IMG/VR virus record: IMGVR_UViG_3300031563_000002 | Location: 1 to 44,829 of that record | Source of the DNA: a virus | Length of the DNA: 44,829 nucleotides | Reading direction: 5' to 3' (one strand) | In this document: positions 12,288 to 29,663 of the stretch, in pieces | How the letters are laid out: every line of letters begins with the position of its first letter | Position numbering within the stretch: position 1 is the first letter of the stretch | Position numbers and translations under genes: made by a program | The notes under the pieces: model-generated | What the model was told of the DNA's origin: nothing | The model's input: only the letters and a program-made list of their open reading frames with translations | Databases searched by the model: none

Positions 12288-12482
12288 ATGAGGGAGTATT
12301 CTTGCTTCGTAGACTCGGACGGGGAGCTCCGCTTGGTCAGGCGCGTTACTGACGAATGCGGCCGTTGGGAAGATTGGGGTCCGGCGGGTCAAGATGACCT
12401 GACTACGATCGCCAGACAGTTACATTTCATATACTACCCACAAGCGCTGTGGCAGGCCCAGGTTCCCTACAACAAGCTTTAA
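12288..12482 (+). CDS. Small hypothetical protein (64 aa)
   Basis: It starts two bases after the previous stop and ends eight bases before a strong terminator. It is acidic, with a strand-rich N-terminal half (SCFVDSDGELRLVRRV) and a helical, aromatic C-terminal half. I recognise no family. It is the last gene of the exonuclease-ATPase-SSB transcription unit. Confidence 0.6.
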   Translation: MREYSCFVDSDGELRLVRRVTDECGRWEDWGPAGQDDLTTIARQLHFIYYPQALWQAQVPYNKL

Positions 12483-12489
12483 CCTTCCG

Positions 12490-12511
12490 GGAGGGCTTCG
12501 GCCCTCCTTTT
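12490..12511 (+). terminator. Rho-independent terminator
   Basis: GGAGGGC (12490-12496), TTCG loop, GCCCTCC (12501-12507), then TTTT. It separates the recombination group from the methyltransferase-polymerase-helicase group. I find no strong promoter right after it, so the downstream genes probably rely on readthrough. Confidence 0.87.
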
Positions 12512-12526
12512 CTTCTGGGAGCACGC

Positions 12527-13852
12527 ATGAAACGCTACGCATCAGTATCCTCAATCAACATCTCCAGCAATCGGCAGCGTCGCCAATTCGACGAAGAAGC
12601 CCTCCGCGAGTTGGTAGAATCCATCCAACGCCCAGCAGGGCTTCTCCATCCCCTCGTATGCCGCCTTGAGGATGACAAGTACATCCTCGTAGCCGGGGAG
12701 CGCCGCCTCCGCGCAATCCAGGACATCTATGCCTTGGGCGGAACGTTTAATTTCGCGGGCGAGCCGGTCCTTCCGGGGATGGTTCCCTTCACTCTCCTCC
12801 AGGACCTCGACCCAATCCAGATCATGGAAGCTGAGCTCGAAGAGAACACCATCCGCAGGGACCTAACTTGGCAAGAGCGGGCCAACGCAATGTCCCAGCT
12901 GGCCGAGCTCCGAAAGGCCCAAGCGGCAGCAAGCAACTCCCCCCCACCGACGATTGTCAGTTTAACTGCCGAGACTCGGGGCACCAAGTATACAGACACA
13001 ACGCGCAAGGAGCTGATGGTCGCGCGTCATCTGGACGACCCGGATGTCCAGGGGGCAAAATCCCTCGACGAAGCTGTGAAGACCCTTAAGCGCAAGGAGG
13101 AACGGAAGCGCAATGCAGAGCTAGCGGTCAGAATCGGCGAGAACTTCTCCTCGAAGGATCATCTGGTAGTCCAGCAAGACGCCGAAACTTGGGCGATGAG
13201 TTGCAAGTCTGACCGATTCGACGTAATCCTCACGGACCCTCCCTATGGAATGGGAGCTGATGGCTTCGGGGATGCTGGCGGAAAGACAAGTGGGGGGCAC
13301 AGCTACACCGATAGCGAGGATATCCTATCCCACATTCTGTCTTGGTTTCCTGAACAGTCATTCCGCATCGCCAAGCAAGCAGCTCACCTATACCTATTCT
13401 GCGACATAGACTGGTTCCATACCTGGCGCGATGCCCTTTCGGATGCTGGCTGGAAGGTCTTCCGCACACCTTTGATCTGGTTCAAGCCTTCGGCCTACCG
13501 AGCTCCGTGGCCAGAGCAGGGACCGCAGCGGAAGTACGAACTGATCCTGTACGCAGTAAAGGGAGATAAAAAATGCACAGCCCTAGCAGGTGACGTAATC
13601 GAATGCCCGCCTGATGAGAACCTAGGCCACAACGCCCAAAAACCTGTGGCCCTGTACCAGGAGCTTCTGCGGCGGAGCGCTCGACCGGGGGAGCGAGTCC
13701 TAGACCTGTTTGCGGGGAGTGGCCCCCTTATCCCTGCCGCACATTCCCTTAAGTGCAGCGCAACCTGTGTTGAAATTGATCAGGCTTCAGCCGGCATGGC
13801 GCTGGGCCGCTTGCGTGCGCTGGACAATCCGAACTATGTATATGAAGCTTGA
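12527..13852 (+). CDS. ParB-like domain fused to DNA methyltransferase (441 aa)
   Basis: The start ATG at 12527 has GGGAG upstream. Residues about 5-120 form a ParB/Srx-like domain, with NRQRRQFDEEALRELVESI, then GERRLRA (57-63) and ENTIRRDLTWQE. Residues about 205-440 form a DNA methyltransferase of the DPPY class. DPPYGMG (237-243) is catalytic motif IV, and LDLFAGSG (about 392-399) is the S-adenosylmethionine-binding motif I. Motif IV before motif I gives the beta-class order, and DPPY suggests N6-adenine methylation. Such fusions in phages probably protect phage DNA or mark it. No partner restriction enzyme is present, so it looks like an orphan methylase. Confidence 0.9.
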   Translation: MKRYASVSSINISSNRQRRQFDEEALRELVESIQRPAGLLHPLVCRLEDDKYILVAGERRLRAIQDIYALGGTFNFAGEPVLPGMVPFTLLQDLDPIQIMEAELEENTIRRDLTWQERANAMSQLAELRKAQAAASNSPPPTIVSLTAETRGTKYTDTTRKELMVARHLDDPDVQGAKSLDEAVKTLKRKEERKRNAELAVRIGENFSSKDHLVVQQDAETWAMSCKSDRFDVILTDPPYGMGADGFGDAGGKTSGGHSYTDSEDILSHILSWFPEQSFRIAKQAAHLYLFCDIDWFHTWRDALSDAGWKVFRTPLIWFKPSAYRAPWPEQGPQRKYELILYAVKGDKKCTALAGDVIECPPDENLGHNAQKPVALYQELLRRSARPGERVLDLFAGSGPLIPAAHSLKCSATCVEIDQASAGMALGRLRALDNPNYVYEA

Positions 13853-21140: not shown

Positions 21141-21476
21141 CTAGGCAATGTAGGTAGAAATGAGTTCAGAGAAATCCGGCGGGACATACGCAGGGTATAC
21201 GCAGCCAGGAACCGCGTACCCAGGAACGGCCGAACGAGTTAAAAGGGTGCAATCCGCTGTTACAAAGCTATCCGCTGGTTCTGGCTGTGTCCAGGGAGGA
21301 GTTTGATTATCGGGAATCCCGCGCACAAAGTCCTGGGGATGGCGCGGCTCCCAGTGCTCGGGGCAGACCCAATATCCCTGCCAATGCTTCTTCATATACG
21401 AGGCCTTGCGCTTGCGCCCGCATTCGAAGCAGACTACATTGTAGTCACCGTCTGCGTAATAGTCAGCTCTTCCCAT
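21141..21476 (-). CDS. Conserved phage zinc-ribbon protein (111 aa)
   Basis: MGRADYY...CFECGRKRKASYMKKHWQGYWVCPEH is a clear signature: a CxxC pair (CFEC), a basic helix, and C-x2-H (CPEHW), followed by EPRHPQDFVRG and NQTPPWTQPEPAD. I recognise this as a small protein very common in podovirus and prophage tail modules, without known function. Zinc binding is strongly implied. The start overlaps the end of the PurD-like gene by 14 bases; the tailspike gene follows nine bases later. The C-terminal third (about 75-111) varies and is Pro/Tyr-rich. Confidence 0.85.
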   Translation of the reverse strand: MGRADYYADGDYNVVCFECGRKRKASYMKKHWQGYWVCPEHWEPRHPQDFVRGIPDNQTPPWTQPEPADSFVTADCTLLTRSAVPGYAVPGCVYPAYVPPDFSELISTYIA

Positions 21477-22788
21477 AGTTCATCCCCTTTGCGTAGCCAA
21501 GTTTCTGAAGGGCGGGTAGGTCTTTCTCAAGTCTTGCTCCAATGTCCGTGCGATAGGTCTTGTGTGGAGGCCAGTTAATCTTCTCCACATGGGCGTATGC
21601 GTCATCGTGGGCAGCGGTGACAGTCTCGCCAAGTCCCGTTACGACCAATGCGTAGGTCCCGGCGGTACAGTAGGTTTCCTTCCACGCGATCTTCCCGGCG
21701 TAACGGACAGGAGCAGTATCCCTCATCACGGAAGACATGTGGACGTAGGGGAGGATCTTAGGTGTGAGTCCCCGGATTGGGTGGCCTACGGATTGCTCCA
21801 TCGGGAGAAGATCCCAAGGGTAGTCCTTCAGTGCCATCACTACGCCGAGGCAGGTTGTATCGTACTTCACCCTGAGTGAATCCTGCCCATCAATCAGATC
21901 GGCCATCCACTCGACTGAGTCCACTTCATGCAGGTTCATACATAGGTTGAAATGCGGCCAGCCAAATCGCATGGTGAACTCCAGAGGCCAAGGAGTTCCG
22001 TCATCCGTGATGATGCAGTTAACATCTACATACCCAACATATCCGCGATCTACCATCTCCTGTTCCAGGGGCTTGAGGACCTTGTCGAAGAGCTTGGACT
22101 TCTCAACGTACCGCATGATGGTGCCCATCTCACCTGTGTTAGGCCCCAGTCCACCGTTAAGGAGTCGCTTCTCCTCCCAGTTCTCATTGATCGGCGGGAG
22201 GAATCCCTGCGGTCCGCACCACACACCAACAGCCATTTCATGCCCATCCACCTTTTCCTGGAGCATGAACTCGCCAGGGAGCTTCTGCTTCTTCCAGTGC
22301 TCCAGCTGGCTGATCAGGTCTTCGGGGGTTTTCGGGACATAGGACAGACTCTTGTCGGGATTCCCACCCCACGGCTTCGAGACAAACGGTTTATCTTCCT
22401 TCACCACGTAGGCAATCGCCGCATCGTAACTGGAGAAGGTCTTGTACGGAAGTACATCAATCCCTGCCTTCTTGAGGACATCTTGTCCAAGCTCGCGGTC
22501 GAGCTCCAGGGCCGCCGAGGCTTTGTTAGCGCCGAAGATAGGATAGCCTTTCCTAAAGAACGGTTCAATCCTATCTCCTAGCTTCATGTTGTCAGTCATT
22601 ACGATGAGGTCGGCCCAGTCCATGGACCGTTCCCATGTAGGGACAACCTTGACGATCCCCCTCCCAATGGGGGACGGCTTGCCACCCTTATCCGGCGGCA
22701 TCCAGAGCCTTACATCATGACCATCATCCAGCATGCGCATGGCCATTGGAAGGCCAACTTTCCCGACATCGAGTATAAATACCTTCAT
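21463..22788 (-). CDS. PurD-like ATP-grasp enzyme (441 aa)
   Basis: The plan follows phosphoribosylamine-glycine ligase (PurD). Residues 1-100 form a Rossmann-like N-domain, then IFGANKASAALELD. An ATP-grasp core carries FVSKPWGG near 136-143, an EFMLQEKVDGHEMAVGV strand near 172-188 and GPNTGEMG near 214-221 (PurD has GPNTGGMG). LEFTMRFG near 267-274 corresponds to PurD EFNxRFGDPE, but Thr stands where the metal-binding Asn is expected, and WP replaces DPE. The C-terminal domain (about 310-435) also fits. Host PurD joins glycine to phosphoribosylamine. The altered motif and late-operon position, between an ejection protein and a virion-module protein, suggest another substrate, such as a virion-protein or DNA modification. 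That is inference. Confidence 0.85.
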   Translation of the reverse strand: MKVFILDVGKVGLPMAMRMLDDGHDVRLWMPPDKGGKPSPIGRGIVKVVPTWERSMDWADLIVMTDNMKLGDRIEPFFRKGYPIFGANKASAALELDRELGQDVLKKAGIDVLPYKTFSSYDAAIAYVVKEDKPFVSKPWGGNPDKSLSYVPKTPEDLISQLEHWKKQKLPGEFMLQEKVDGHEMAVGVWCGPQGFLPPINENWEEKRLLNGGLGPNTGEMGTIMRYVEKSKLFDKVLKPLEQEMVDRGYVGYVDVNCIITDDGTPWPLEFTMRFGWPHFNLCMNLHEVDSVEWMADLIDGQDSLRVKYDTTCLGVVMALKDYPWDLLPMEQSVGHPIRGLTPKILPYVHMSSVMRDTAPVRYAGKIAWKETYCTAGTYALVVTGLGETVTAAHDDAYAHVEKINWPPHKTYRTDIGARLEKDLPALQKLGYAKGMNYGKS

Positions 22789-25700
22789 CGGTAGGACTCC
22801 TTCTTGCGTAGGCGCTCCAGCTCCTTGCGCCGTTTGGCGGCAGCCCGCTCCGATCTCGTCATCCGAGTCTTGGGCATCCCAGCTGCCGACATCAAGGAGC
22901 GCTCGATGGATTGCCCAAAACTACGACCTGGAACAGTTTGTTGCAGACTGATCGGGGTATAGAGCCGGGCGAGCTGCTCCACTTTGGACTTGCGTTCATC
23001 CGTGCTGGTGATGATCTGGCCAGTCTTCGGCACGACACCCATCTTCGCGGCTAGAAGTCTCGACGGATCGAGCACCCATTCGGCGGATTCGGTGAAGTGC
23101 TTGTCCATGTGGATAACGGAGCCGTCTCCAGTTTGGATGGTAAGTGGCTCCCATTTTCGTTTCTGACCAGTACCTGAATAGTTCTGCCAGATGTGGTGTC
23201 CGCTCATTGCAAGGTTCATTCCATCGGCCAGGGCCGCGTAGATCAGAGCGGATCGAAGTGCGTATTTCTGCGCAAGGGCCTTGGTAATCTTCCCGCTATG
23301 CGTGCCGGGAATGGCGTTGTAGAGGGACCTGAATGTAGAGACTGTCCAGTCGGGGGCGAACATCAAGATCGACCAGATACCGCGACCAGAGGGACTCAAA
23401 GTATGCAGGGCAATGTTCTGGAGGAATTTGTTTTGCACAGACGTGGCTACTTCATACCAATCGAGGCCACCCGTAAGGTTGTTAGCATACGCGGAGACTT
23501 GCCGGGCAACTTCATTCGGATCCATTTTAGGATGCTTGATCAGGGCGTTGTCAAACTCATGCAGGGCAATCGCCATCTTCACGCGGGGATAGACAACTTC
23601 CCACGTAGCCTTATCGAACACTCGCTGGACCTTCTCCACACCAGCTCCGGCCTTTCCGAAGGCTCGGCTCTCCAGGCCTGGGACCTTTGACAGCGTAGCA
23701 TCGACGTAATCCCCAAGGTGTTCAAGCGCCCTCAAATCCACGTCTGCATGGGGGGTCTGAGCAACCGGATTCTCCAGTCCGTTCTTGAACAAGATCCTGA
23801 CCCTCGGGTCATTGTTCATATAGGCATCCATTGCACTGCGCAATCCACTGATGACCTTTCCCGACGTCCCCATTGCTCCAGCATAGGCGAACAGAAGGTT
23901 GTTCGCGTGGAACAGGGAGAGGGAAGTCACTAGGCGCTTCTGTGCCATTGAGGCAGCCAGAAGGCCACGCATCATCATTCCGGGGGTGTGGGACTCCAGC
24001 AGAAACTTCATATGCGGTGCAAGTTCTGGATGGACGCGCAGTCCATTCATCTGCGGGTGATTTACAGCGACATAGGTTGCAGGTGCCTTATCATCAGTCT
24101 GGATGAAGGCCTGACCAGTCTCGGGCGTGGCCTTCTTGAGATTCTCGATATAGGCCTTGTTCTCCAGGGCCTTCGCCATCGACCAGCCATAGATTCGGGT
24201 GATCTCCGCGAGGTCGCGGGTCTTCACTCGGAGGCCACGTTCCTCGGCAGCTTTGGCGAACTCGTCAAACGTAGCCCATCGACGGGACTTCGCAAACCGC
24301 GTGGAGGTTCCAGTACCTTGGCCCTCTCCAAAGAGTTCGCGTACAACAGCCTCCGCCTGAGACGCAGGAACATTATCCTTTTCCGCAATGTGCGTAACAT
24401 AGTCCTTGATGAGTCCTTTAATCAGGTTGACATCCTTCGCGGCCTGTCCCCAGGCGCTCATCATCTGGCGATATGCCCGGCCCGCGGAAACCTCGTCTGG
24501 AGTCATTCCGGAGAAGTCCCCCCGTTCGAGTTTATCCGAGATCTGCGCACGGCGCTCTGGATTTGGGACGAGGGTCTCGATGGCGCGGGAGGTTAGGTCC
24601 GCCTCATACCTGCGCGTGCGGATCATCCCCAGTGTGTCGCGGGTCCACTCGGTAATGTCTCGCCCGCCGAGCTTGGTGAATTCAGCCCTGGGGAGGGTCT
24701 TCACCAAACCCCACGTCAGGCCAAGGAGGGCTCCGTCAAATGGATGCTTCTTGTTGACAGCCGCAAGGCCAGCGGTGACTCCACCGATGGTAGCAATACC
24801 AGCGGCGGCGCGACCAACCTGTCCCTTGAACGAACGGATGTAGCCGGGGAGAAAGGAAGCTACAAGGCCGGCAGCTCCGCCGGCGATTGCCGCAGAGAGC
24901 TTGTCGCGCGGGGCGAAGTAGCTTGTGACGGCTGCCCCACCTAGGGTAAGGGCAATACCGGCTAGAAGCTCTGGCCTCGCGGCTCCGTACATCTCGATAC
25001 GACCCTTGAATGGCTGCGTTGGGACGTCAATCCAGGTGTGGCCAGCAGGATCAGTGTAGGGCTTCCCACCGAGGTTTTTGAGGAATTTCTCGACCTCCTT
25101 CTGGTAACGATTGTAGATTGATTGGTGGCCAGGGTCACGGAGCTGGCCATTCTCCCCGCGTGGCCAATCTTCCACCTTCGCAACAGTATCTGCTGTGGCG
25201 AATCTAACAACGCCCTTCTGTGAGTTCCTGGCCAGCTCCTCCCGGATCAACCGACGATACCAGTGCTTGAGCATGGGCGCGAGTTGGGATGAGGCAGCTC
25301 CTGCCTCCATCTTTGCGGAGAGTTCAGCAAGTTGGAGATCTACATGATACATTGCGTAATCTGGGGAAAAATCCTCGTACCTGGTACCACCCAGAGCATC
25401 AAACGCCTTACGTCGAAGTATCTCGCTCTCTTCAGGGTCAAGGTGTTCACGGGTGGTAAGATACTCATTAAGGGCTGACCGCACTTTTTTCAGTTCGTTG
25501 TACCTTCCCCTATACGCTGCCATTTCCATTTCAGGAACAGGCTTCGTATGCTGGGCCAAATCACTCTGGATTTCTACCACATGCTCTACGCCATCTTGAT
25601 TGAATGAGCGGGTCCAGCCAAACAGCCGCTCATCCCCAAAATGATTGGCATCCGACATCATCATGTGTTCGGGGAGACGATATAGGTTTGTCCAATTTTC

Positions 25701-27401
25701 GGAAACGGGCTTACCGCTGCTAAATAATCGACCAATGCGCGACAGCCCATAATACGACCACTTACTAACGGCCTTATGTTCCAGCTCATGGTCCCCGGTT
25801 TCTTCCTTCAGCCCCCGCACGAGATCCTGTGCCTTGACCGTATCACCTGGAATCGAATCCAGAATCCGCCCAATCGAGTCTCGCTCAGCTCCAGAGACAT
25901 CCTGGCGCTTTGCCTGGTCCAGGATCATCTGCTTCGGGAACTCGAACCGATTCTGCGGGAGCCTTTCCAGAGTCTTAAAGGTGTAGTGGGAGCCCTTCAG
26001 CGCCACGCCGAGCGGATTTGCTGCTCCAGGCTCCAGCGCAATGCGCGGATCAATCTTACCCTCCGTGGAAAGCACGGCCCCGGCCACCAGACCACCGCTG
26101 ATGAGTTTCTTAGTCTGATCCGGGTACGCTTGGGCAAGGGCTAGCCCGGTACCAACTGCAGCAATAGCCGGCAGGAATCGCTGATACCTGGGCTGTGTCC
26201 TGGCAACTTCCGTCCCCGCGGGTTTCGGGCCACCCAAGGCTCCGCCGGATGGCGGGACCCCCCGCGTGACCTCGCCCTGCCTTGCCCCGAAGTCTCGATC
26301 GAAAGCCTCAGCAGCTTGCGCCCTTCGCGTCCTGATATCCTCCATGATCTGGCCGACGCGAGGGTTCTTCTTGATCGTAGCTTCAACTTCCTTCGTGGAA
26401 GCCCCCCGATGCATCAGGTCATACGCCCTCTGCTGGGCACGATTCTCGGCATCAGCCTGCTCTCGCAGAACCCGAATGTCGCGAGTACCAGCCGCCTGAA
26501 CCTCTTCGACCGTGGCATCCCCCGCCTTTGGGCCAAGCTCGTCCAGGATCTTCTGCGCGGTGGTCTTGGACATCTGACCAGACTTGATTTCCCCTTCCGA
26601 GATCATCCCTGGACGCTTGAGCATGCTGAGCAGCCCTGCAGGTCCGCCCCACATTGCGCCGATCTTGGCAAGGCGAAGGGGATCATGCACACCAGCAAGG
26701 GCAGCCGTGCCAGCTGCAGCTCCGCCAATCTTGGCGCCAACTACTGCGCCCTTGGCTGCTCGACCCGCGAGAGATCCAAATTTGGATGCGGCTGCGATGG
26801 CCTTCTCCCCACCAGCGACACCACCTACTGCCAGTAGTTCAGGATCTTCCAAGGCCCCCCGAACAACCCCAGCAATGGTAGGAATTGGATGCGTCGCGGC
26901 CTCATGACCGAACTGCTTCAAGCCTGCCATTGTGGGGACTTGACCACCAGCCTGAGCCGCGGCATATTTCTTAGCCACTTCTCCAATCGCTTGCGTGGGT
27001 TCACCGCCGTGTCCCACCATCTGAAGAACCTCTCCAGCCATCCAATCAAGCGCAGAAGCTCCTAGACCATGCGCCGGGTTCGTTCCTTTCAGGGTATCCC
27101 AAGCCATCGCAAGTTCTTGTTTGATCCGACCAACGCCCCAACCAGTTGCCTTAGGGGCCGGCGCTCCCATGAAGTCTTGGAAGGACATTCCCTGCGGCGA
27201 TGGACCCTTCGGCGTCTTTTCCTGCATACCCGAAACTGGGCCGCCCTTCCAGTTCAGCTGCCAATCTGGCGGCTTTCCTGCCTGTATGTCCGCAATAGTC
27301 TTCCCAATACCTGTCGGTCCTGGCCGCAGCATCGGCTCTCCAGGAGATGGCTGGGCAGTCGCCGGCTGTCCCATGAACTGAGAGAAGCTCTGCTCGGCCA
27401 T
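22785..27401 (-). CDS. Large ejection/polyvalent internal virion protein (1538 aa)
   Basis: The largest gene. The N-terminal 100 residues are low-complexity, Pro/Gly/Gln-rich, with two SF-FMG repeats (SFSQFMGQP, SFQDFMGAP). Hydrophobic Gly/Ala-rich stretches at about 190-255, 405-450 and 810-910 could cross membranes, as in podovirus ejection proteins. Residues about 575-805 hold a module (RLPEHMMMSD...VVEIQSDLAQH...LIREELARN...VVRFATAD) seen in large polyvalent proteins of phages and conjugative elements, where EIQSD is typical. The C-terminal part is mostly helical and ends in a very basic tail. It is probably packed in the capsid and injected with the DNA. No lytic transglycosylase motif was found. 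Confidence 0.82.
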   Translation of the reverse strand: MAEQSFSQFMGQPATAQPSPGEPMLRPGPTGIGKTIADIQAGKPPDWQLNWKGGPVSGMQEKTPKGPSPQGMSFQDFMGAPAPKATGWGVGRIKQELAMAWDTLKGTNPAHGLGASALDWMAGEVLQMVGHGGEPTQAIGEVAKKYAAAQAGGQVPTMAGLKQFGHEAATHPIPTIAGVVRGALEDPELLAVGGVAGGEKAIAAASKFGSLAGRAAKGAVVGAKIGGAAAGTAALAGVHDPLRLAKIGAMWGGPAGLLSMLKRPGMISEGEIKSGQMSKTTAQKILDELGPKAGDATVEEVQAAGTRDIRVLREQADAENRAQQRAYDLMHRGASTKEVEATIKKNPRVGQIMEDIRTRRAQAAEAFDRDFGARQGEVTRGVPPSGGALGGPKPAGTEVARTQPRYQRFLPAIAAVGTGLALAQAYPDQTKKLISGGLVAGAVLSTEGKIDPRIALEPGAANPLGVALKGSHYTFKTLERLPQNRFEFPKQMILDQAKRQDVSGAERDSIGRILDSIPGDTVKAQDLVRGLKEETGDHELEHKAVSKWSYYGLSRIGRLFSSGKPVSENWTNLYRLPEHMMMSDANHFGDERLFGWTRSFNQDGVEHVVEIQSDLAQHTKPVPEMEMAAYRGRYNELKKVRSALNEYLTTREHLDPEESEILRRKAFDALGGTRYEDFSPDYAMYHVDLQLAELSAKMEAGAASSQLAPMLKHWYRRLIREELARNSQKGVVRFATADTVAKVEDWPRGENGQLRDPGHQSIYNRYQKEVEKFLKNLGGKPYTDPAGHTWIDVPTQPFKGRIEMYGAARPELLAGIALTLGGAAVTSYFAPRDKLSAAIAGGAAGLVASFLPGYIRSFKGQVGRAAAGIATIGGVTAGLAAVNKKHPFDGALLGLTWGLVKTLPRAEFTKLGGRDITEWTRDTLGMIRTRRYEADLTSRAIETLVPNPERRAQISDKLERGDFSGMTPDEVSAGRAYRQMMSAWGQAAKDVNLIKGLIKDYVTHIAEKDNVPASQAEAVVRELFGEGQGTGTSTRFAKSRRWATFDEFAKAAEERGLRVKTRDLAEITRIYGWSMAKALENKAYIENLKKATPETGQAFIQTDDKAPATYVAVNHPQMNGLRVHPELAPHMKFLLESHTPGMMMRGLLAASMAQKRLVTSLSLFHANNLLFAYAGAMGTSGKVISGLRSAMDAYMNNDPRVRILFKNGLENPVAQTPHADVDLRALEHLGDYVDATLSKVPGLESRAFGKAGAGVEKVQRVFDKATWEVVYPRVKMAIALHEFDNALIKHPKMDPNEVARQVSAYANNLTGGLDWYEVATSVQNKFLQNIALHTLSPSGRGIWSILMFAPDWTVSTFRSLYNAIPGTHSGKITKALAQKYALRSALIYAALADGMNLAMSGHHIWQNYSGTGQKRKWEPLTIQTGDGSVIHMDKHFTESAEWVLDPSRLLAAKMGVVPKTGQIITSTDERKSKVEQLARLYTPISLQQTVPGRSFGQSIERSLMSAAGMPKTRMTRSERAAAKRRKELERLRKKESYR

Positions 27402-28603
27402 TAGAAGGACTCCTCTTCGACGTTCTCATCAGCCGGGGAGGTGCTGTCACCTCCACCCGGCTGGAAGTCCTTCACCACACTGGTATCAAACCCCTGGCCC
27501 GTCCACATTCCGACTTGACCAGAGGGAGACTTGTAGAACCGACCAACGATCAGATCTTGGGGCTTGGAATCGGCAGTGAGGATCTTTGCGCGGGCTGGAA
27601 CATCCCCTGGCATGTAGGTTGTTTCCTTGCCGAAGCCAAGGATCCCATTCGTCCTCACCAAGTCATGTTCCCTGTTGATGTCCGCATAGGCCTGCTGCAC
27701 AGCCTCGTCATAGGACAGCCCACGGTTCTGGGCCATCTTCTTCCTAGCCATGTTGGCGATGTCATCGGCCAGGAGACTCTTGTCCTCATCGAGCAGGTTG
27801 GGAACCACCTTTTCCAGGTACCTATATGCAGTTGCCTTGTCCGGTCCGCTGGCCGGGCTGATCTTGGTTCCCTGGACCTTGCCTGAGGCAGCCTTCCCAG
27901 CTTCCATATTCTTCACCTGGAGCTTGATCAGCCTATCCCGCAACGAGCGAATCTGGTTTGCCCCCTTCACGTTGTCCTCGTAAGCAGATTCATGCGCACG
28001 CTTGAGTTTCGCATCCAGTTGCTCCTTCATTGTCATCGAGGATGCCTTGGCTTGGTCTAGGGACATTCCCATGAAGGGGGACGGAACTCCATTGGAGCGC
28101 CGAGTCCACTGGCGATTCAACTCATCCAGTTGGCTCTGATCAGTCATCTGATTGATCGTTCCACTCAAGAGATTCACGGCCTTGAGCTGGGAGGAAAGCT
28201 GCGAATCGACGAGTCTGGCACCAGCAGCATTGGTCTGGGCTTTCTTCTCCTGGATCGTAGCCGCGGTTTCCGCAAGCTTCGCTCCAGCAGCAACGCCTCC
28301 GGGAGTTCCCATCGCCGCATTAGCCATACCAACTAGGTTGTTTGCGAAGGCATCTAGCTGGTCTCCCTGTTGGCTCAGCGCCTGGGCCTGTCCCTGCGGA
28401 GACTGCGCGGCTTGCTTCTGCTTCTGAAAATACTCAGCCATCTTCTTTTCTGCGAGCATCTGCATCTGCGTTTTCTGCGCATTAATCTGATGCTCCTTGG
28501 CAGTTGCCAGAAGATTCTCTGACTGAGCAAAGCGAGACATGTCAGTCATGTACTGATTGTAGCCAAACCCCTCGCCATAGGTATCTGGAAATCCACCGGC
28601 CAT
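27401..28603 (-). CDS. Helical internal virion/ejection protein (400 aa)
   Basis: The start is ATG 28603 with AAGGAGA five bases upstream; a longer frame (from 28657) lacks this. Residues about 25-330 are largely helical with many Gln, Ala and Lys residues, including coiled-coil stretches (QMQMLAEKKMAEYFQKQKQ). Residues about 340-380 hold a small beta-like domain (AKILTADSKP, then GRFYKSPSGQVGMW). Size and position between a Gly/Ala-rich ejection protein and the 1538-residue protein match the second of three podovirus ejection proteins (as P22 gp16, gp20 and gp7 or T7 gp14-16). The stop overlaps the start of the next gene. Confidence 0.72.
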   Translation of the reverse strand: MAGGFPDTYGEGFGYNQYMTDMSRFAQSENLLATAKEHQINAQKTQMQMLAEKKMAEYFQKQKQAAQSPQGQAQALSQQGDQLDAFANNLVGMANAAMGTPGGVAAGAKLAETAATIQEKKAQTNAAGARLVDSQLSSQLKAVNLLSGTINQMTDQSQLDELNRQWTRRSNGVPSPFMGMSLDQAKASSMTMKEQLDAKLKRAHESAYEDNVKGANQIRSLRDRLIKLQVKNMEAGKAASGKVQGTKISPASGPDKATAYRYLEKVVPNLLDEDKSLLADDIANMARKKMAQNRGLSYDEAVQQAYADINREHDLVRTNGILGFGKETTYMPGDVPARAKILTADSKPQDLIVGRFYKSPSGQVGMWTGQGFDTSVVKDFQPGGGDSTSPADENVEEESF

Positions 28604-28613
28604 ATTGGTCTCC

Positions 28614-29663
28614 TTATTGCAGAACAGGACTCGGATAGAACGCGCGACCCAGGGCACTCAATCCGGAAGACTGCAGGTTAGCAGCACCCGCAAGTCCTTC
28701 GTACATCGCGGGAGCACCTGCCCCGGGAGTTCCACCAGCAAGCCCACTCAGCTGCGAGATCTGCTGGTTGTAGAAGTCTCCTGCGTACTTCTGAATGGCT
28801 GCGGCCATGTTACCGGAACCTTGGTAGCCTTGCGCAGCCATCGTGCGCTGGACACCTTCCAGACCAGCTTCATAGCCAGGCATCGAGGTAATCAGGTTCG
28901 GATTAGCCTGGAGCGCAGCAAGTCTCTTCGCGTATTGCGCTCGGTATGCTGCTTGTGGATCGGCTGCTGCCGCATAGGCCGCCATCTGTTGCCGCATCCG
29001 CTGGGCTTGCTCCAGAGCACTGACGCCTGAATAGATATTCCCCGCTGATCCCATTGTCATCCCGCCCAAGCTAGATGGAAGAGCCTCACCCATCGGGAGG
29101 AAGTTTGCCATTGGCGTTGCTTGGTAGGTTCCGTAGAGATTCCGGGCAGCTTCCAGGGTACTGGGAGAAGCCGATTGAGCGGTTGCCGAAGTTCCCGGCA
29201 TCCACTGACCCCCTGCGCCAAGACTGTGCTCTGCGATCGGGGCAGCCCCTGCCGCAGCCCCCAAGGAACTATAGGCACCCCCGGCTTCAAATGCAGACGG
29301 TGCGGCGGAATATCCGGCAAAGCTTCCAGGCGCGGAATAGGCAGCTGCGGGAGCCGCCGACATCCCGCTCATGGTTGCTCCAGCAGCTGTAGTTCCAGCG
29401 GCAGTTCCAGCTGCAGTGCCGGCTGTCGTAGTACCAGCTGCTGAACCGCCTACTGACGTTCCAGCGGCTGCCCCCGCAAGACCTTCGTACAAACCCCCAA
29501 CACCATATACGGCCAAGCCAGTCTGAAGGCCGTTCTTGAGCGACCCACTCTGTGCGTATTCCGCCAGACCGGCCCCAAGAGCAGCGTATGACAGACCACC
29601 TGTAAAGTACCCAAGCACTGCACCTGCGACATCCCCTAGAATATGACCCCAGTTAAGACCCAT
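28614..29663 (-). CDS. Gly/Ala-rich internal virion (ejection) protein (349 aa)
   Basis: Residues 1-60 contain hydrophobic helices (AGAVLGYFTGGLSYAALGAGLAEYA). Residues 60-200 are a low-complexity AAGTTAAGT-type stretch, and 215-349 are helical with YEAGLEGVQRTMAAQGYQGSGNMAAAIQKY, a segment typical of phage internal proteins such as T7 gp14-like and P22 gp7-like products. Such proteins leave the capsid first and help form the DNA channel. It is the first of three ejection-type genes in transcription order. The Ala/Gly stretch is coded by short GC-rich DNA repeats prone to slippage. Confidence 0.75.
   Translation of the reverse strand: MGLNWGHILGDVAGAVLGYFTGGLSYAALGAGLAEYAQSGSLKNGLQTGLAVYGVGGLYEGLAGAAAGTSVGGSAAGTTTAGTAAGTAAGTTAAGATMSGMSAAPAAAYSAPGSFAGYSAAPSAFEAGGAYSSLGAAAGAAPIAEHSLGAGGQWMPGTSATAQSASPSTLEAARNLYGTYQATPMANFLPMGEALPSSLGGMTMGSAGNIYSGVSALEQAQRMRQQMAAYAAAADPQAAYRAQYAKRLAALQANPNLITSMPGYEAGLEGVQRTMAAQGYQGSGNMAAAIQKYAGDFYNQQISQLSGLAGGTPGAGAPAMYEGLAGAANLQSSGLSALGRAFYPSPVLQ

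Follow-up and report, generated by a model that had tools for sequence, protein, structure and literature searches.

Does a phage gene that resembles purD and lies among the virion genes supply purines, or does it encode a ligase for some other pair of molecules? The gene was found in a virus record of 44,829 nucleotides (IMGVR_UViG_3300031563_000002), the whole of which was analysed and is called the window here.

The gene and its place in the late block

The reading frame is open from ATG to stop over 441 codons (Table 1), on the strand that also carries the terminase, portal, capsid and Hc3 genes; the replication genes are on the opposite strand. The product matches the Pfam families GARS_A (1e-11) and GARS_C (3.9e-12). 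It also matches the purD model TIGR00877 with an E value of 5e-33 and 114.5 bits, which is below the curated cut-off of 288 bits, and its relatives, at 71-112 bits, likewise fall below that cut-off. We call the subfamily to which the ligase belongs the EFT clade. PHROGs gave no match to the ligase. Consensus matches for a promoter or terminator of its own were as common in shuffled sequences, with no excess. The original prediction had described a protein on the PurD plan, with GPNTGEMG and LEFTMRFG, with Thr for a metal-binding Asn and with WP where PurD has DP(E), encoded away from metabolic genes and overlapping both neighbours. Every one of these features was seen again in the 441-residue ORF, which sits in the late block away from nucleotide genes. 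What had been missed were the loss of the GGREHA loop, the residues D255 and N257 at the YAG site of PurD, and the fixation of such changes across a large family.

Table 1. Positions in the window of the ligase gene, its motifs and other genes discussed in the text
Feature	Position	Strand	Remarks
PurD-like ATP-grasp ligase of the EFT clade	21463..22788	-	441 aa; from ORF call, family matches, alignment, tree and structure model
EFTMRFGWP, residues 270-278	21955..21981	-	metal Glu270; Thr272 for Asn; Arg274; Trp277-Pro278 for Asp-Pro
DVN, residues 255-257, at the PurD YAG site	22018..22026	-	D255 in 89/89 phage copies; Asn in nearly all cellular copies
GPNTGEMG, residues 215-222	22123..22146	-	E220 for second Gly of PurD TGG
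WEEK, residues 204-207	22168..22179	-	E205 at Asp212 (glycine site); K207 at Lys214 (ATP site)
Residues 5-14, where PurD has the GGREHA loop (absent here)	22747..22776	-	from alignment
CxxC/CxxH protein, 111 aa	21141..21476	-	14-bp overlap with ligase; also in ligase-free relatives
Upstream ORF, 1538 aa, probable internal/ejection protein	22785..27401	-	4-bp overlap with ligase; no family match
ORFs of 418 and 349 aa, probable further internal proteins	27401..29663	-	from position and synteny only
Cpn10/GroES-like protein, 118 aa	36678..37034	-	PF00166, 2.7e-10
ParB N-terminal domain fused to N6/N4 DNA methyltransferase	12449..13852	+	

The upstream 1538-aa protein had been called ejection-type. 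Its size and its order after the portal, capsid, adaptor and Hc3 genes agree with that name, which rests on these two properties because the ORF has no Pfam or PHROG match. The downstream protein, described as a zinc ribbon, does contain CxxC...CxxH but has no Pfam match.

The same arrangement recurs in most phage loci, where the ligase gene lies directly 3' of a large ORF of about 500-1700 aa, the last of a probable internal/ejection block. The two genes overlap by 4 bp or 1 bp in 47 loci, and the genes that follow the ligase are often convergent. The large proteins directly upstream fall into several groups not joined by BLAST, and a comparison of their C-termini for a shared tag showed no common motif. 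In 29 phage loci (e.g., L006:15900-16346), a GNAT acetyltransferase gene precedes the ligase by three to five genes; this is not so in the window.

Fold, ancestry and residue changes

An AlphaFold2 model of the ligase, built on 81 sequences, had a pLDDT of 95.8 and a pTM of 0.92. The comparison with PurD and other ATP-grasp enzymes that had been proposed gave a full-length PurD fold with high confidence: every one of the best 15 PDB matches is a PurD (query-length TM 0.68-0.76), and the fold matches, which include PurD, PurK, biotin carboxylase and an amino acid ligase, place the protein in the ATP-grasp fold. The ligase shares domain order as well as fold with PurD, or GAR synthetase (TIGR00877; PDB 2yw2, 2xcl, 2qk4, 1gso). 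The match to YwfE (3wo1), an ATP-grasp L-amino acid ligase, is far weaker (TM 0.55, 11% identity), and no full-length counterpart was found among the viral models of BFVD, where the best TM was 0.43 by query length. In a maximum-likelihood tree of 90 rows, canonical PurD (100/100), cellular EFT sequences (98/94) and phage EFT sequences (100/100) form separate clades; the phage clade, with 52 rows, is sister to a clade of chromosomal paralogues. We conclude that the EFT clade is a distinct ATP-grasp subfamily that parted from PurD long ago.

In PurD, the Asn and Glu of the EFN motif bind metal, and the GGREHA loop serves phosphoribosylamine binding. Residues of Aquifex PurD (PMC8880213) were carried over to the ligase via a pairwise alignment of the two and were then read in an EFT alignment of 162 sequences, 89 from phages and 73 cellular. 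Much is retained: Glu100, Lys143, Glu192 and Lys214, the ATP residues of PurD, correspond to E95, K138, E184 and K207, while Arg287 and the metal Glu of EFN correspond to R274 and E270. K138, K207, E184 and E270 are invariant in 162 of 162 EFT sequences, as are T272, E205, E220, R274 and P278, and E95 is present in all but one gapped row.

Unlike PurD, the ligase has Thr272 for the metal-ligand Asn of E[FY]N (Asn285), a replacement seen in all 162 sequences. Lys103 has become R98, which is fixed in phage and cellular copies alike, Asp212 of the glycine site has become E205, and the second Gly of TGGMG is E220. Glu185 is replaced by Q177 (Met in most cellular copies) and Asp290, the Asp of GDPE, by W277 (Tyr in most cellular copies), and the position of Glu292 is variable across EFT sequences. 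The PurD signature of the PROSITE PS00184 type, R[LF]GDPE as quoted in PMC3261824, is absent; the ligase has RFGWPH, and most EFT members have G[WY]P. The GGREHA loop is missing from the ligase and from the ten EFT sequences shown, and present in 8 of 8 canonical PurD copies. The bound structure of phosphoribosylamine in PurD is itself not known, according to PMC8880213. Judged by four features, namely the TIGR00877 score, R[LF]GDPE, the GGREHA loop and the Asn of E[FY]N, the ligase appears not to be a PurD. Two 'extra' haloarchaeal PurD-like proteins, rrnAC0307 and Hlac_1553, were judged not to be GAR synthetases (PMC3261824), and by their description they resemble the ligase in being PurD-like without the Asp of GDPE, the Mg sites and the N-terminal loop.

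With a classical metal ligand replaced in every EFT member, which is a counterpoint to any active enzyme, one might suspect a dead enzyme that serves as a structural or decoy protein. We regard this as highly improbable: the remaining residues mapped to ATP, metal and carboxylate are constant across phages and cells, and the dN/dS of close ligase pairs is 0.03-0.22. The EFT ligase is under purifying selection.

Distribution and the empty slot

A search of IMG/VR with the single protein returned five relatives of 55-59% identity, and an alignment-based scan found at least 477 stretches with an EFT ligase, 80 of which were kept for further analysis. A comparable scan for canonical PurD gave 20 viral loci, and E[FY]N.R.GDPE is present in 19 of the 19 copies in which the motif is readable. 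The ratio of EFT to canonical PurD is thus about 24 to 1 (477 vs 20 stretches, from two scans that are both lower bounds), a rough figure because both scans rest on short patterns. The EFT ligase is carried by hundreds of uncultured short-tailed phages. Among phage records, the sole close relative is MW202796.1 (41% identity), in which the matching region has no annotated gene; most other matches there are 23-28% identical, several are annotated as host-type purD, and we took them as bacterial PurD. A search of the literature for a PurD-like phage ligase found no description of the EFT family.

Among genome contigs, one scan detected 93 relatives, and 80 were kept: seven of the phage-like form (L084-L090, 44-49% identity) and a chromosomal set (L091-L163, 25-33%). 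A viral scan with one cellular paralogue as query gave no match. The copies in Paraburkholderia sp. C35 probably belong to a prophage, since terminase, portal, Hc3 and tail-spike genes surround them inside a 148-kb contig. Nine EFT-bearing genomes were searched for canonical PurD, and eight also have a copy above the cut-off; in three of the nine (L086, L088, L090), the EFT copy is of the phage form.

These counts bear on whether the ligase could be a PurD that has diverged and yet supplies late DNA synthesis with glycinamide ribonucleotide. Its homology and full-length fold, the retained Arg287 with Glu for Asp212, and reports of viral purD as an auxiliary metabolic gene would all fit. However, the gene is placed in the late block, apart from nucleotide genes, the purD cut-off is missed, the GGREHA loop is absent in the EFT sequences shown, and the loss of GDPE and of the Asn that binds metal is fixed in 162 sequences, whereas canonical viral copies retain E[FY]N and GDPE and eight of the nine genomes already have canonical PurD. 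We therefore consider purine supply very unlikely, and the EFT ligase gene does not belong in counts of viral genes for making purines. Viral purD/GART has been reported as a purine-synthesis or metabolic gene in oceans, snow and vents, and as virus-enriched in one survey (PMC11360552, PMC11097641, PMC12043954); if the purD/GART matches in virome surveys are mostly of the EFT family, that claim would be wrong.

The ligase is not present throughout its own lineage. Among 28 contigs longer than 35 kb with a related terminase, 18 have the gene; single absences prove little because contigs may be fragments. In four ligase-free contigs (G013, G015, G028, G033), the upstream large ORF and the 111-aa-type gene abut, at -4 to +3 bp, from which we infer that the ligase gene is a cassette that occupies a fixed slot and that the lineage does not need it for core assembly. 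In one of the 18 ligase contigs (G035; L323, L294, L295), a stop and a change of frame interrupt the gene, which is either a pseudogene or the result of an assembly error.

The pairing of the ligase with the 111-aa gene in other phages holds regionally: a gene of that type follows on the same strand in at least 13 of the 18 ligase contigs, but it also occurs where the ligase is absent, and most phage ligase loci in the wider neighbourhood comparison are without it. As each occurs without the other, the 111-aa gene is not an obligatory partner. Synteny of the ligase itself, which had been put forward as a check, extends across many phages; a single phage clade (52 rows, 100/100) in a conserved place excludes a recent stray insertion.

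The slot also bears on virion modification, in which an amino acid or similar group would be joined late to an ejection or other virion protein, or the ligase itself would enter the virion and be ejected into the new host to work there. In favour of this, the gene is tightly coupled in translation to the last of the large internal-type genes in many phages, a GNAT gene shares its block in 29 loci, and some ATP-grasp ligases are known to modify proteins (PMC4431377). Set against these are the diversity of the directly upstream proteins, in several BLAST-unjoined groups with no shared C-terminal motif, and the absence of the ligase from relatives that have related upstream proteins in the same order. 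We think this explanation rather unlikely, and the link to a virion protein made in the original prediction is weakened by the same observations, including the abutting flanks in ligase-free relatives.

A predicted amide-forming ligase and its possible substrates

We consider it probable that the gene encodes a late carboxylate-amine ligase with changed substrates, an accessory enzyme not concerned with purine supply. The proposal of an ATP-grasp ligase with a changed substrate thus survives in its general form, since the substrate sites differ from those of PurD and the protein is not a plain PurD, and is weakened as to its specific virion-protein target. Because the protein retains the fold of PurD and most of its ATP machinery, carboxylate phosphorylation and acyl transfer to an amine is the most likely chemistry; because metal- and substrate-binding residues are consistently changed, the ligase probably joins a different pair of molecules. 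ATP would phosphorylate a carboxylate held by Arg274, and the acyl group would pass from the acyl phosphate to an amine, with Glu205 perhaps still recognising a cationic group such as an amino group. Without GGREHA and DPE, the acceptor amine would be a different one and the acyl pocket would be altered, and at least one substrate, probably both, would be other than glycine and phosphoribosylamine. A counterpoint is that glycine may still be the acyl donor, given Glu205 at the glycine site and a whole C domain that is still PurD-like.

The gene sits at the 3' end of the internal/ejection block, a position from which late expression would be expected. The product of the enzyme might be a small amide or an altered form of a host component or of a virion protein. 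Two points incline us slightly towards a small product resembling an amino acid or peptide, or a modified host component, which seems quite possible, and away from a virion protein, which seems less so: relatives do without the gene, and the directly upstream protein showed no acceptor motif. Such an amide-forming modification would be accessory, helping some phages late in infection, and not part of core assembly. The substrate question is open to experiment, with two outgroups (canonical PurD and chromosomal EFT) and with copies in sequenced Paraburkholderia isolates, where Paraburkholderia sp. C35 and P. rhynchosiae WSM 3937 (L086, L088) carry them in probable prophages.

Other phage ATP-grasp proteins are known. 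Those of the R2K/CDC123 group (PMC4431377, PMC7824862) are phage-borne and predicted to be amide ligases, like the EFT ligase, but belong to a different ATP-grasp clade and gave no match in family searches with it. The chromosomal paralogues of the sister clade share EFT, TGEMG, WE.K, P278 and R98, all fixed as in the phages, and differ in overall identity (25-33%), in Asn for D255, Met for Q177 and GEL for GPN, and in their gene neighbours. Of 72 loci with a cellular EFT copy, 35 encode an iron enzyme of the haem-oxygenase fold (PF14518, HDO) nearby, 29 have a gene for a HemK/MTS-type methyltransferase and 17 have one with a SET domain; none of these partners was found in phage loci beyond one weak SET match. 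The neighbourhood of PF14518, HemK/MTS methyltransferase and EFT paralogue, in some cases with the SET gene, occurs in many proteobacteria, myxobacteria, gemmatimonads and planctomycetes. HDO enzymes act mostly on amino acids, at least 25 clusters of HDO with ATP-grasp enzymes have been counted, and in the mangotoxin cluster HDO is coupled with two ATP-grasp amino-acid ligases, MboC and MboD (PMC13185094). Nothing about the phage substrate need follow from what the cellular operon contains. We offer as a tentative suggestion, to be taken as a whole, that this chromosomal neighbourhood marks an uncharacterised amino-acid-type modification pathway, that phages widely carry an unnamed late amide ligase acting on a virion protein, an ejected or host molecule or a small molecule, and that much of the 'purD' in viromes is of the EFT family.

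Modification of a DNA base, which had also been raised, found no supporting enzyme in the gene content scanned; DNA hypermodification was set aside, as the early genes scanned show only the ParB-methyltransferase gene and genes of replication and recombination. That fusion gene lies directly upstream of the DNA polymerase gene. The window also encodes a Cpn10/GroES-like protein, in the late block beside the portal gene, and MW202796.1 has one as well.
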